This document shows, piece after piece, positions 17,483 to 21,477 of a DNA stretch of 64,000 nt. The position numbers and the translations under genes were made by a program. Source of the stretch: Maritalea porphyrae (lineage in GTDB: Bacteria; Pseudomonadota; Alphaproteobacteria; Rhizobiales; Devosiaceae). The notes beneath the pieces were generated by a model. That model had not been told where the DNA came from. It searched no databases and worked only from the letters and a program-made list of their open reading frames with translations. The first letter of the stretch is position 1. Every line of letters begins with the position of its first letter. Location of the stretch: contig NZ_BSNI01000002.1 in NCBI RefSeq assembly GCF_030159895.1, forward strand, positions 2,196,306 to 2,260,305, given 5' to 3'.

Positions 17483-17535
17483 CTGGAAACAAGGAAAATC
17501 TTGACCCAAGCGTACGCAATGTGAAAATTGGCCCC

Positions 17536-17943
17536 ATGACAGAACAGAAAACACCAGAACAGTTCTTGGCTTCAATTGAAGACAAAAACCGACAAGAAGA
17601 TTGCAACAAAATCCACGAAATGATGGCGCGTATTTCTGGCTGGGATGCCAAGATGTGGGGCCCCTGCGTCATTGGCTATTCAAGCTATAAGTACAAGTAT
17701 AAGAGTGGTCATTCCGGCGAAACTTTCCGTATCGGCTTTGCAAACCGCAAAACCCAGATAACGCTCTATATCCTTTGGTATCCGGACAAGGATGACCCAC
17801 TACTTGCAAGCCTTGGCAAGCACAAGGTGGGCAAAGGTTGCTTATATATCAAGCGATTAAGCGATGTGGATGAATCAGTTCTTGAAGCGCTGATTCAGCG
17901 TGCGGTCTCAGAGTTTGGCAATCGCAGCGAAGTGACCGAATAG
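17536..17943 (+). CDS. DUF1801 domain-containing protein, copy 1
   Basis: A 135-residue YdhG-like (DUF1801) protein. It contains the core EDCNKIHEMMARISGWDAKMWGPCVIGYSSYKYKY, followed by GFANRKTQITLYI and KGCLYIKRLSDVDESVLEALI. The function of the family is unknown. I prefer ATG 17536 over GTG 17521; neither has a strong ribosome site. It is divergent from the ArsR gene and shares the operator-containing region. It resembles the next gene so strongly that the two must be tandem duplicates. Confidence 0.87.
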   Translation: MTEQKTPEQFLASIEDKNRQEDCNKIHEMMARISGWDAKMWGPCVIGYSSYKYKYKSGHSGETFRIGFANRKTQITLYILWYPDKDDPLLASLGKHKVGKGCLYIKRLSDVDESVLEALIQRAVSEFGNRSEVTE

Positions 17944-18002
17944 CCTAGCGAACTGGAAAGCCACAGCAATTTGTGGTTACATCAATCGCAGGGGATAAAG
18001 AG

Positions 18003-18428
18003 ATGGCGAAAAATCAAAATAAGACGCAAGAAACCGATGCAAGCGTTGATGAATATCTCATGCAAATTGAGAACGATGAAAAGCGAGCAGATTGCTTTAG
18101 AATCAGAGAGATGATGGAACGCATTGTCGGCGCGCCGGCAAAAATGTGGGGAACCGCTATCATTGGATTTGGCAACTATCACTACAAATACGAAAGTGGC
18201 CGCGAAGGTGACTTCATGCGCTCTGGTTTTGCGGCACGAAAAGCAAACATTGTTCTATATATTATGGCTGGCTTTTCGGAGTATGAAGCCTTGCTTGAAA
18301 AAATGGGCCCGTACAAACACGGCAAAAGCTGTTTATACATCAAACGCTTGAGCGATTTGGATGAATCAGTTCTCGAAGAAATCATTACGCGATCAGTGGC
18401 CTATATGGCTGAGAAATATCCAGAATAG
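18003..18428 (+). CDS. DUF1801 domain-containing protein, copy 2
   Basis: A 141-residue second DUF1801 protein. The segments KMWGTAIIGFGNYHYKYESG and KSCLYIKRLSDLDESVLEEII match copy 1 almost residue for residue, while the N-terminus differs. Start ATG 18003 has GGGGA about 9 bases upstream; the earlier GTG at 17973 lies in the gap. It is 59 bases after copy 1 and 9 bases before the SRPBCC gene, so the three are probably one operon. Confidence 0.88.
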   Translation: MAKNQNKTQETDASVDEYLMQIENDEKRADCFRIREMMERIVGAPAKMWGTAIIGFGNYHYKYESGREGDFMRSGFAARKANIVLYIMAGFSEYEALLEKMGPYKHGKSCLYIKRLSDLDESVLEEIITRSVAYMAEKYPE

Positions 18429-18437
18429 GAACCAAGC

Positions 18438-18899
18438 ATGCCAACCATCACTATTTCAAAGCACTATAACGCCTCACCCGAAATCGCGTTCGACACAGTT
18501 TCTGATTTCCCAAACGCCGCACAGTTCGTTGATGGCATCAAAGAGGTGAAAATGCTGACCGATGGCCCCGTCGCTATTGGCACAAAAGTCAAAGAAACCC
18601 GCATCATGATGGGCCGCGAGGCCAGTGAAGTGATGGAAGTCACGGTGATGGATCGCCCTTCACGTTTTGTCGTAGAAGCATTTAGCCACGGCACCAAATA
18701 TGTGACCAGCTACGATATTGAGCCGGAAGACGATGGCTCAAAGGTGATGCTCACCTTTAAAGCGACGCCTCAGACTATTATCTCAAAAATCCTCGCAGCG
18801 TTGTTTTCGAAAATGATCTCGACAGTCGCTGATTTGATGGAAAAGGATTTGATCCAAGCAGGCGAAGAGGCTGAGCGGCGCTCAAAAGAAGCCGCCTAA
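18438..18899 (+). CDS. SRPBCC-family (polyketide cyclase/START-like) protein
   Basis: A 153-residue helix-grip protein. The N-terminus TITISKHYNASPEIAFDTVSDFPNAAQFVDGIKEV is typical of the SRPBCC/polyketide cyclase-like superfamily, followed by beta-strands (GTKVKETRIMMGREASEVMEVTV, RFVVEAFSHGTKYVTSYDIEP) and a long C-terminal helix (LAALFSKMISTVADLMEKDLIQAGEEAERR). It likely binds a hydrophobic ligand; no substrate can be assigned. Its last 4 bases overlap the convergent DUF4336 gene. AGGA precedes the ATG by 6 bases. Confidence 0.85.
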   Translation: MPTITISKHYNASPEIAFDTVSDFPNAAQFVDGIKEVKMLTDGPVAIGTKVKETRIMMGREASEVMEVTVMDRPSRFVVEAFSHGTKYVTSYDIEPEDDGSKVMLTFKATPQTIISKILAALFSKMISTVADLMEKDLIQAGEEAERRSKEAA

Positions 18900-19588
18900 C
18901 GCAACAAACCGACCCACGCTTGGGCAAACTTTTCCCGTGCGGCAATGCCTTCATAAATCGCACCGTGAGACATGATAATTCGCTCAAATGGCCACGCCTT
19001 TGCACGTTCAATGCCGGCAAGAAACACCGATTTATCGCCGGCGGCAAACTTGTGGTAAAATGGCAGTGACAATTCGCCGAATTTCGCGACCAACCGAAAG
19101 AACAATGTCTCACTGGGATACTGATCACCTTGATAGTGATAAATCATATCCGCAGTGATTAGTGTTTTGCTTGGCGAATGAAAAAACACCGTTTCTCGAA
19201 TGCCGTGTCCTTTGAGAGCAATTTGCTCAAGTTCACCGCTGCTCACCACTGGATTGCCGTCGTCCAACAATTGATGGTCTGGTAATTCGCCTTTTAGTTT
19301 TTCGGCTAAACCCTTAGGCGCCCAGCATTGAGCGTTCGGAAATCTCTTGGCGCAAGCCATAAAGAAAAGGTGGTGAAACAGATTTGGCGCCACAATGCGT
19401 GCAACCGCGCCAAGCGCTTCGATTTGGTCGCTCAACTGATCATCAATCATCGTCGGAGAATGGATGAACAATTGACCATCCCCGAACCGCACAATGGTCA
19501 TGCGCACGGAACCTTTAACGCCCAGAATGACGAAACTGTCTTCAACAACCCAAATATTTTCATCAATCTTGCGCAGTTGCGAAGGCAT
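18896..19588 (-). CDS. DUF4336 domain-containing (metallo-beta-lactamase-fold-like) protein
   Basis: A 230-residue protein of the DUF4336 family. It begins QLRKIDENIWVVEDSF, then MTIVRFGDGQLFIHSP, VAPNLFHHLFFMACAKRFPNAQCWAPKGLAEK and KTLITADMIYHYQ, a layout like metallo-beta-lactamase proteins but without the full HxHxDH; the HH of NLFHHLF and the late IIMSHG may be remnants. It is therefore probably not a hydrolase of the classical type. It converges on the SRPBCC gene. Confidence 0.82.
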   Translation of the reverse strand: MPSQLRKIDENIWVVEDSFVILGVKGSVRMTIVRFGDGQLFIHSPTMIDDQLSDQIEALGAVARIVAPNLFHHLFFMACAKRFPNAQCWAPKGLAEKLKGELPDHQLLDDGNPVVSSGELEQIALKGHGIRETVFFHSPSKTLITADMIYHYQGDQYPSETLFFRLVAKFGELSLPFYHKFAAGDKSVFLAGIERAKAWPFERIIMSHGAIYEGIAAREKFAQAWVGLLR

Positions 19589-19639: not shown

Positions 19640-19668
19640 AAAAAAGCCAATGCAATTAATGCATTGGC
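19640..19668 (-). terminator. Intrinsic terminator of the candidate sRNA
   Basis: A perfect 9-bp stem, GCCAATGCA and TGCATTGGC with loop TTAAT, is followed by TTTTTT on the minus strand. It lies 51 bases upstream of the DUF4336 start, so it cannot be the terminator of that gene. Confidence 0.75.
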
Positions 19669-19746
19669 CAAATATTGGAGATCTTGGTTTGGGTCGCCAT
19701 CGGACATGGTTGAGGGCTGCAAAGGGGGACATGTCCGACAGCGACC
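19640..19746 (-). ncRNA. Candidate trans-acting sRNA
   Basis: On the minus strand a 17-bp helix (GGTCGC-TG-TCGGACATG with CATGTCCGA-TG-GCGACC, plus-strand 19692-19746) is continuous, with two G-U pairs; on the plus strand those positions would be C-A mismatches. The 21-base loop holds TCCCCC and CCCTC, C-rich motifs of the kind that can pair with ribosome sites. About 25 bases downstream GCCAATGCA-TTAAT-TGCATTGGC is followed by six T. No minus-strand gene feeds into this terminator from upstream, since amn is on the plus strand. The 5' end is not defined. Confidence 0.55.
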
Positions 19747-19963
19747 TAAGCGGTCGACAAAGGGCAATAAGCCAACCGCACAAAACCGATATGGTGCTCC
19801 CATTCTGTGATTAAAGAGGCGTCACATTCTTGTGATCAAAAAATCTTCTGATTGTGCATAAAGACAAAACCAAAAACACCAGATATGCTTTCGCAATGTT
19901 GGCACCAAAACCAATTGCTTGGTGCAGCAGAACGAAAAAAACAAAAACAATAATGGAGTTCAA

Positions 19964-21439
19964 ATGGATATACTTCGCCCAGAACCTTTGCCGGAAAAAT
20001 CTTTCAGTGACCCCTATATGGCTCGCGACTATGTGGCTGAGATTTACAACCGCAATACGCAGTTTATTCGCGACGCGGTGCAAGAACTTTCCAAAGGCAA
20101 CCCGCCAAAAGGGCGTGTTCGGGCAACATATCCGATGGCAAAAGTGCGTTCACGCAGTTTCCAAAAGATCGATTCACATTTGCCGTATGGCTTTCTGCAC
20201 TCGCCTGGTATTTATCAAACAACTATTTCTGAACCTGAGCTCTTCAAATACTATCTCACCGCGCAGTTCGCCCAGCTTTTGAAGAATCACGAGTGCGAGA
20301 TAGTTATTAGTGAGTCAGATACACCGATTCCGGTCCATTTTGCGCTCGACCCGACTACAACACTGGATGGCGAAGCTATCAACGCATTGGGCATCCCGTT
20401 GCGCGACATTTTCGATGCGCCAGATTTGGCACATACGGACGATGAAATCGCCAACGGCACGTTCATTCCTCCACAGGGAGGCCCCTACCCGTTGGCAGCA
20501 TTTACAGCGCCGCGCGTGGACTATTCGTTGCATCGCTTGTCGCACTACACCGCAACGCAGCCCGAGCATTTCCAAAATTTCGTGCTGTTCACCAACTATA
20601 GCTTCTATATCGAAGAGTTTTGCCGCCTAGCACACAAATGGATGGAAGAAGGTCACCCCGACTACCACGCATTTGTCGAGCCTGGAAACGTCATCACGCA
20701 CAACAAAAATGTAGGCGAAGCCCCTACTGGCAAAAAACCGCCACGGGAACCGCAAATGCCAGCCTATCACCTCAAAGCAAAGCACGGATCTGGTATTACG
20801 ATGGTCAATATTGGTGTTGGCCCATCAAATGCCAAAACCATCACTGACCATATTGCAGTGCTGCGCCCTCACGCTTGGGTTATGCTTGGGCACTGCGCTG
20901 GGCTGCGAAACTCGCAGGAGTTAGGTGACTATGTTCTTGCCCATGCCTATGTGCGCGAAGACCACGTTCTCGATGCGGATCTACCAATTTCAGTACCGAT
21001 TCCCGCCCTTGCTGAAGTTCAAGTCGCCCTAGAACAGGCGGTCGGTGAAATCACCGAGCTTACCGGAATGGACAAAAAACGGATCATGCGCACTGGAACG
21101 GTAGCGACTTTTGACAACCGGAATTGGGAATTGCGCGACCAAAACGAAATTGCACAGCGATTGTCGCAATCACGTGCTATCGCACTAGATATGGAAAGTG
21201 CAACGATCGCTGCGAACGGTTTTAGGTTCCGCGTACCATATGGCACGCTCTTGTGTGTTTCAGACAAACCGCTACATGGCGAATTGAAACTGCCTGGCAT
21301 GGCCAGCGATTTCTACCGCACCCAAGTTTCAAAACACTTGGAAATCGGCATACGCGCAATGGAAATATTGCGTCAACAGCCCGCCCACTCAATCCATTCC
21401 CGCAAACTCAGATCGTTCGCGGAAACGGCATTTCAGTAG
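19964..21439 (+). CDS. amn: AMP nucleosidase
   Basis: Amn cleaves AMP to adenine and ribose 5-phosphate, regulating the adenylate pool. The 491-residue protein has the Amn-specific N-terminal domain (SDPYMARDYVAEIYNRNTQFI, then RATYPMAKVR) and a C-terminal purine nucleoside phosphorylase-like domain with TMVNIGVGPSNAKTITDHIAVLRP, AWVMLGHCAGLR and ALDMESATIAANGFRFRVPYGTLLCVSDKPLHGE. ATG 19964 is chosen for its GGAG 5 bases upstream; the longer frame from 19919 starts at TTG. It converges on the malic enzyme gene. Confidence 0.96.
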   Translation: MDILRPEPLPEKSFSDPYMARDYVAEIYNRNTQFIRDAVQELSKGNPPKGRVRATYPMAKVRSRSFQKIDSHLPYGFLHSPGIYQTTISEPELFKYYLTAQFAQLLKNHECEIVISESDTPIPVHFALDPTTTLDGEAINALGIPLRDIFDAPDLAHTDDEIANGTFIPPQGGPYPLAAFTAPRVDYSLHRLSHYTATQPEHFQNFVLFTNYSFYIEEFCRLAHKWMEEGHPDYHAFVEPGNVITHNKNVGEAPTGKKPPREPQMPAYHLKAKHGSGITMVNIGVGPSNAKTITDHIAVLRPHAWVMLGHCAGLRNSQELGDYVLAHAYVREDHVLDADLPISVPIPALAEVQVALEQAVGEITELTGMDKKRIMRTGTVATFDNRNWELRDQNEIAQRLSQSRAIALDMESATIAANGFRFRVPYGTLLCVSDKPLHGELKLPGMASDFYRTQVSKHLEIGIRAMEILRQQPAHSIHSRKLRSFAETAFQ

Positions 21440-21453
21440 GCTTTGCAAGGTGT

Positions 21454-21477
21454 TGCGGACGTTACTTCGCGTCCGCA
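21454..21477. terminator. Bidirectional terminator-like hairpin between amn and maeB
   Basis: TGCGGACG and CGTCCGCA form a perfect 8-bp stem with an 8-base loop, 15 bases after the amn stop and overlapping the last codons of maeB. T-runs are poor, so it may block readthrough or protect the 3' ends rather than terminate strongly. Confidence 0.35.

Follow-up and report, generated by a model that had tools for sequence, protein, structure and literature searches.

The intergenic region that precedes amn in Maritalea porphyrae contains hairpins on the minus strand, and the question raised by this locus is whether they belong to an independent regulatory RNA, as an original prediction made from the sequence had proposed, or to one of the neighboring genes. 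We addressed this question in a 64,000-nt stretch of DNA, hereafter the window, and in related genomes, mostly of the family Devosiaceae.

A predicted RNA gene upstream of amn

Folding of the minus strand confirmed the proposed 17-bp stem with two G-U pairs (19746-19692). This stem, that of hairpin B, is uninterrupted and consists of 15 Watson-Crick pairs, one U-G pair, and one G-U pair. The terminator hairpin followed by six T, proposed for the same strand, was also recovered (19669-19640). Its hairpin (19669-19645) reads GCCAAUGCA-UUAAU-UGCAUUGGC, with nine Watson-Crick pairs and an outer G-U pair as scored, and the six T stand at 19645-19640 of the minus strand. Hairpin B was more stable when read from the minus strand (z = -7.8) than from the plus strand (z = -5.0), and none of 200 shuffles equaled it on either strand. 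The plus strand is less stable at this hairpin because the G-U pairs turn into A-C mismatches. For a 146-nt stretch that includes the 5' hairpin, the z values were -7.6 (minus) and -5.6 (plus).

The extent given to the RNA had to be revised. Hairpin B and the terminator stood, but the original prediction had overlooked the 5' hairpin, the promoter-like elements, and a downstream gene of the same strand. Alignment revealed a conserved block between amn and hairpin B, which folds as the 5' hairpin A. The layout of the predicted RNA gene, from 5' to 3', is promoter-like elements, hairpin A, the C-rich hairpin B, and terminator C (Table 1). The statement that no upstream gene on the minus strand can explain the terminator holds, since the nearest such gene, encoding a malic enzyme/phosphotransacetylase, ends at 21462, with amn intervening on the plus strand.

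Table 1. Features of the predicted sRNA locus, in window positions.
Feature	Coordinates	Strand	Basis
amn, AMP nucleosidase, divergent neighbor	19964..21439	+	Pfam AMNp_N and PNP_UDP_1
Palindromic operator-like site GATCACAAGAATGTGAC, Maritalea form of TTCAC-N5/6-GTGA	19821..19837	read on -	Alignment of 35 loci
-35-like CTTTAA, with a 17-nt spacing to the -10-like element	19811..19816	-	Family alignment; consensus only
-10-like CATATC	19788..19793	-	Family alignment; consensus only
Predicted sRNA gene, about 142 nt	19640..19782	-	5' end predicted near 19781 by the position of the -10-like element; 3' end is the T-tract
5' hairpin A, 9 bp	19750..19779	-	Folding and helix 1 of the family pair counts
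Hairpin B, 17 bp including two G-U	19692..19746	-	Folding and helix 3 of the family pair counts
C-rich loop of hairpin B, 21 nt, UCCCCCUUUGCAGCCCUCAAC, candidate seed	19709..19729	-	Exact 19-nt core common to 6/6 Maritalea
Intrinsic terminator C and six T	19640..19669	-	Terminator call and helix 4 of the family pair counts
DUF4336 gene, about 50 nt past the terminator	18896..19588	-	Pfam

Stems change and loops stay nearly fixed

Pairing was counted over the three hairpins (36 pairs) in 42 non-Maritalea sequences, a restriction made because MAFFT misaligned the Maritalea copies when run on all 48. Changes on both sides were seen in 29 of the 36 pairs, and 92.3% of the cells in these 42 sequences were paired. 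By helix, both sides had changed in 8/9 pairs of helix 1 (hairpin A), 6/9 pairs of helix 3 (hairpin B), and 15/15 pairs of helix 4 (terminator C). None of 500 shuffles reached any of five pairing measures, and pairing fell to 34-49% when the partners were slid by 1-3 columns; it should be noted that the shuffles ignore the relatedness of the sequences, which the sliding control keeps. While the stems change, both loops, CGACCCAUGC and CCCC.AAGCCCUCAA, show little or no variation in the same 42 sequences. Outside Maritalea, the loop of hairpin A is a near-invariant CGACCCAUGC, and elsewhere in the family loop B takes the form UCCCCCAAGCCCUCAACA. The predicted sRNA is a clear case of strong stem turnover with nearly fixed loops.

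Distribution across Devosiaceae and beyond

The original prediction had named conservation in relatives as a check, and this check was passed, both for the loop in Maritalea (6/6 genomes) and for the whole RNA across Devosiaceae. The closest named relatives of the window amn come from Maritalea, then Devosia, Arsenicitalea, and Pelagibacterium. Of 48 loci with an amn of 70% identity or more, which come from Devosiaceae or closely related bacteria and include some MAGs with a name only at order level or in another family, 47 have the RNA in divergent orientation to amn. A motif search placed the loop motif and a hairpin within 600 nt upstream of amn at 46 of the 48. At L058, the RNA lies farther upstream and was matched with an E value of 5e-25 by a covariance model trained outside Maritalea (R2), whose training set does not contain this locus. 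At L078, the RNA is absent from the 700 nt upstream of amn and R2 gave no good match. At 32 loci with an amn at most 66% identical, no true motif was found within 600 nt upstream (two regex matches were spurious), and R2 found nothing better than E 0.35 over the whole of these loci; two training loci included in that scan as controls scored 131 and 149 bits. A terminator script called a T-tailed hairpin at 34 of the 42 non-Maritalea loci, picking the wrong hairpin in L071.

A second covariance model, R1, was built from 40 sequences, including those of the window and L002. At E 0.01, it matched 118 of 136 Devosiaceae genomes, or 117 once G148, whose match (E 2e-4) is without the loop, is dropped from the family count; all of the remaining 117 have E values of 1.9e-6 or better. 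By genus, the R1 tally is 12/16. The RNA is normally single-copy, with a second R1 match in four family genomes: on another contig and with the same score in G024, and at E 0.008-0.009 in G021, G121, and G156. When amn and the RNA are on one contig, as in 14 genomes, they are adjacent and divergent in all 14; in G019, they are on two contigs. Two further genomes are set apart by their gene content: G008 (genus g4) lacks the RNA as well as any amn match at E 1e-40, and G017 (genus g13) has amn with the RNA absent upstream.

Outside the family, R1 matched 4 of 297 genomes of the order (the other 12 matches of that scan are family members and are excluded from this count) and 6 of 385 genomes of the class, with a marginal best E value of 5.6e-5. 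Inspection covered the first match in each of these ten genomes, and none of these first matches has a C-rich hairpin loop; the second and third matches are L165-L168 and the second of G642. In L164, a similar string is found on the opposite strand only.

Within Maritalea, the exact 19-nt loop is found in all six genomes and always occupies the same position on the upstream side of amn; one additional site in G003 matches it with two mismatches. The stems of G001, G002, and G005 differ greatly in sequence from that of the window and still pair, with two G-U each as counted from folds, which cannot reveal A-C. Compared with the rest of the family, the Maritalea copies differ in the loop of hairpin A and have a loop B that is 4 nt longer, and a good terminator is absent in 4/6 genomes (G001, G002, G004, and G005). 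R1, run under strict filters, missed the six Maritalea genomes although its training included the window and L002; it also missed G009, whose loop, UCCCCUCUGCAGCCCUCAACC, is an intermediate form. The RNA is present in all of these by loop and position. With R2, the window copy scored 8.2 bits (E 0.78) and ranked ninth among the matches in the window, and the best Maritalea match of this model, at the correct place in L003/L049, had an E value of 0.085. The orthology of the Maritalea copies is argued from where they lie, from the order of promoter elements and of hairpins, and from the UCCCCC..AGCCCUCAA loop that they share with the family, with no significant model score.

Promoter-like elements and a conserved palindrome

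Along the minus strand of the window, the palindrome is followed by CTTTAA, a 17-nt spacer, CATATC, the predicted start near 19781, and hairpin A. Alignment of 35 loci gave a consensus with the same order, namely TTCAC-N5/6-GTGA, then CTTTT..CATCTT, then hairpin A. CTTT..CAT[AC]T is found in 37/46 loci and the TCA..GTGA palindrome in 43/46. A plain promoter scan of the window returned nothing at the sRNA site, and the promoter is a predicted one, assigned by consensus and conservation only. Its -10-like element may also resemble the -10 element of alphaproteobacterial RpoH promoters. GGAAC-N15-18-GTT, used here as the sigma-EcfG promoter consensus, was found in none of the 46 loci.

The exact Devosia form of the palindrome, TTCACNNTTCGGTGA, has 18 matches in 41 Devosia genomes. 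Fifteen of them, in 15 genomes, adjoin the sRNA by coordinates, and three are elsewhere. A regulator binding the TTCAC-N5/6-GTGA palindrome beside the -35-like element would control the expression of the sRNA.

Candidate seeds and proposed action

We consider it likely that this locus is a stand-alone sRNA gene of the Devosiaceae, whose predicted transcript has its own promoter and, mostly, its own terminator and acts by base-pairing through its C-rich loops. Transcription would start at this promoter, lead in the direction opposite to amn, and in most species stop at the terminator. The candidate seeds are UCCCCC..AGCCCUCAA in hairpin B and CGACCCAU in hairpin A. Their partners would be G-rich stretches in several mRNAs, probably located close to ribosome sites, and pairing, in which Hfq probably takes part, would alter translation or stability. 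Hfq is encoded in five of the six Maritalea genomes, and the sixth genome is 83% complete. The features expected of a trans-acting base-pairing sRNA are present, namely a predicted promoter, a terminator, an intergenic location, and a conserved structure with an unpaired segment. A base-pairing regulator is suggested by precedent from the normally single copy, the intergenic position, the covarying stems, the fixed C-rich loops, the promoter-like elements, and the terminator; since no specific target was found, the mechanism is one that we infer.

Neither the pattern search nor the duplex search yielded a convincing mRNA target. With at most one mismatch, TTGAGGGCTTGGGG has 170 matches in 61 Devosia genomes versus 17 for the reversed pattern. 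About 60 of the 170 are probably the RNA gene itself. Twenty of the roughly 110 other sites were sampled, and all lie in stretches open for at least 100 codons, 17 of them on the sense strand. Long open stretches are common in GC-rich DNA, and the excess of sites is read as a putative effect of codon composition. One site, in L242, has a GTG/ATG 5-8 nt downstream. The start region of amn was compared with loops A and B at the 40 of 42 loci fitting the loop patterns, and the duplexes were on average weaker than shuffled ones; only L059 reached 0.05 among the loci listed.

That no target stands out, that both loops hardly vary across most of the family, and that the copy number is normally one would also fit an RNA that binds a protein, in a titrating or structural role, with the invariant loops serving as protein-recognition sites and no base-pairing. 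We hold this to be unlikely, as the two C-rich, single-stranded loops resemble known base-pairing seeds of alphaproteobacterial sRNAs, and Hfq is present.

Going beyond the base-pairing reading, we offer one tentative and rather doubtful suggestion. An undescribed core sRNA of the Devosiaceae, with two different invariant loops on separate hairpins, might regulate globally through two seeds or serve as a decoy for an RNA-binding protein. Its link to amn would be a palindromic operator common to both and rare in the rest of the genome, so that purine-nucleotide salvage and the RNA answer one signal.

Neighboring genes, strand, and reading frames

The presence of a DUF4336 gene downstream on the same strand raises the alternative that the RNA is the 5' leader of this gene, either an attenuator or a riboswitch. 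In the window, the gene indeed starts shortly past the terminator. However, five other Maritalea genomes carry the RNA without a DUF4336 gene at the locus, and the leader reading is excluded for these relatives because the gene is missing there; overall, we judge it very unlikely. G003 and G004 have no DUF4336 match, and the same hairpin lies between amn and a Polyketide_cyc2 gene. In G001, G002, and G005, relatives of the DUF4336 protein (26-32% identical) are encoded on contigs other than that of amn. According to a crude ORF caller, the next ORF is convergent in four named Maritalea loci, and elsewhere in the family it is of many kinds and on both strands.

Past the DUF4336 gene, the window contains a Polyketide_cyc2 gene and a tandem pair of DUF1801 genes (17521-18428) on the plus strand. 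A DUF4336 gene between the sRNA and Polyketide_cyc2 was seen in 1/6 Maritalea genomes, that of the window, which would reflect either a recent insertion there or losses elsewhere. Among the ORFs adjoining the sRNA in related loci, the largest group (10/46) resembles DUF1801 by eye.

The position upstream of amn, together with stems that largely pair on the plus strand too, could instead point to a plus-strand element, either the 5' leader of amn or the terminator of the gene upstream of it. When the 42 sequences are read on the minus strand, however, 190 G-U, 17 A-C, and 98 other mismatches are counted, against shuffled means of 252 G-U and 102 A-C. A-C is avoided far more than G-U, a pattern that fits an RNA read from the minus strand. 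This ratio leads us to reject the plus-strand reading as highly improbable. In addition, the T-tract comes after the terminator on the minus strand, and the palindrome, the -35-like element, and the -10-like element follow one another in an order consistent with minus-strand transcription. Sequence comparison shows three hairpins selected for pairing, strong selection on the sequence of two unpaired loops, and minus polarity. The independent minus-strand RNA of the original prediction is thus supported by conservation, by compensatory changes, and by a bias in pairing from which the strand follows.

A gene for a short peptide that begins at the conserved ATG of hairpin A is scarcely credible and is rejected by its frames, for although CCATGC is near-invariant outside Maritalea, 13 of the 42 sequences read MHR-stop, one encodes another three-residue peptide, the remaining ones give 5 to 41 residues with shifting frames, and the loops are invariant at every codon position.

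Comparison with known RNA families

The Rfam check that had been proposed for alphaproteobacterial sRNA families returned no family at threshold. Rfam 15 had no matches at the gathering threshold in the window and 18 family loci, and permissive scans gave sub-threshold matches only, the best at the window site being 16.7 bits against a threshold of 50. Kinship with Rhizobiales-2 (RF01723) was considered and rejected, as its model reached 27.4 bits in L066 against a threshold of 40 and was unlisted to E 3 in 20 other loci. The Rhizobiales-2 RNA is like the sRNA in its hairpins, its terminator, and, in strong matches, a single-stranded CACCCCAAGCGCCC stretch; unlike the sRNA, it is without amn within about 1.5 kb on each side at the six loci checked. 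RF01723 itself is found in 5/199 genomes of the order, all of one genus (genomes of 6.9-8.8 Mb), with two matches each (L180-L189), and in L180 and L183 the CACCCCAAGCGCCC stretch resembles the sRNA loop. A literature search, with subscription journals mostly outside its scope, returned nothing on this RNA, no paper on a Devosiaceae sRNA, and no paper on 'Rhizobiales-2 RNA'; Devosia went unmentioned in the papers listed by part of this search.

These results support the locus as a real candidate for a conserved structured RNA gene, one that would represent a new Devosiaceae sRNA family of a known kind that is not in Rfam 15. The Devosiaceae (Devosia, Pelagibacterium, Maritalea, and others) thereby gain a normally single-copy candidate regulatory RNA, and it is directly testable because a covariance model is at hand, its ends are predicted, and promoter-like elements as well as candidate seeds have been located.

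Several sRNAs of related bacteria are built on a comparable plan. PmaR of Agrobacterium, with a spoon-like structure, is described as restricted to Agrobacterium and one Rhizobium strain (PMC6234868). By that description, it shares with the sRNA a long stem, a single-stranded loop with C-rich regions, and a narrow range. The Rhizobiales sRNAs SmelA075 and SmelA099 are described as having three or four hairpins with CCUCCUCCC loops (PMC3927594). They are similar in their hairpins, conserved C-rich loops, and variable stems, but the two loops of the sRNA (CGACCCAUGC and UCCCCCAAGCCCUCAACA) differ from each other, and neither contains CCUCCUCCC. The alpha-R8 family, with its UUUCCUCCCU stretch, is of the same broad kind (PMC12559287).

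GsrN of Caulobacter (Caulobacteraceae) is described as an RNA of about 106 nt whose 5' C-rich loop, its best-conserved part, acts on G-rich mRNA sites, and whose BLASTn matches are in one family only (PMC5869019). The same text places it in the sigma-EcfG stress regulon, with homologues typically near those genes (PMC5869019). The likeness lies in an exposed C-rich 5' loop as the target seed, an intrinsic terminator, and a narrow range. The predicted sRNA combines an unpaired, C-rich loop on its 5' side with an intrinsic terminator, the latter being poor in 4/6 Maritalea. The differences from GsrN as described there are the location beside amn, the EcfG-like site found in 0/46 loci, other loop sequences, and a separate 5' hairpin. 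The best reading is that the sRNA is like GsrN in plan and not a member of its family.
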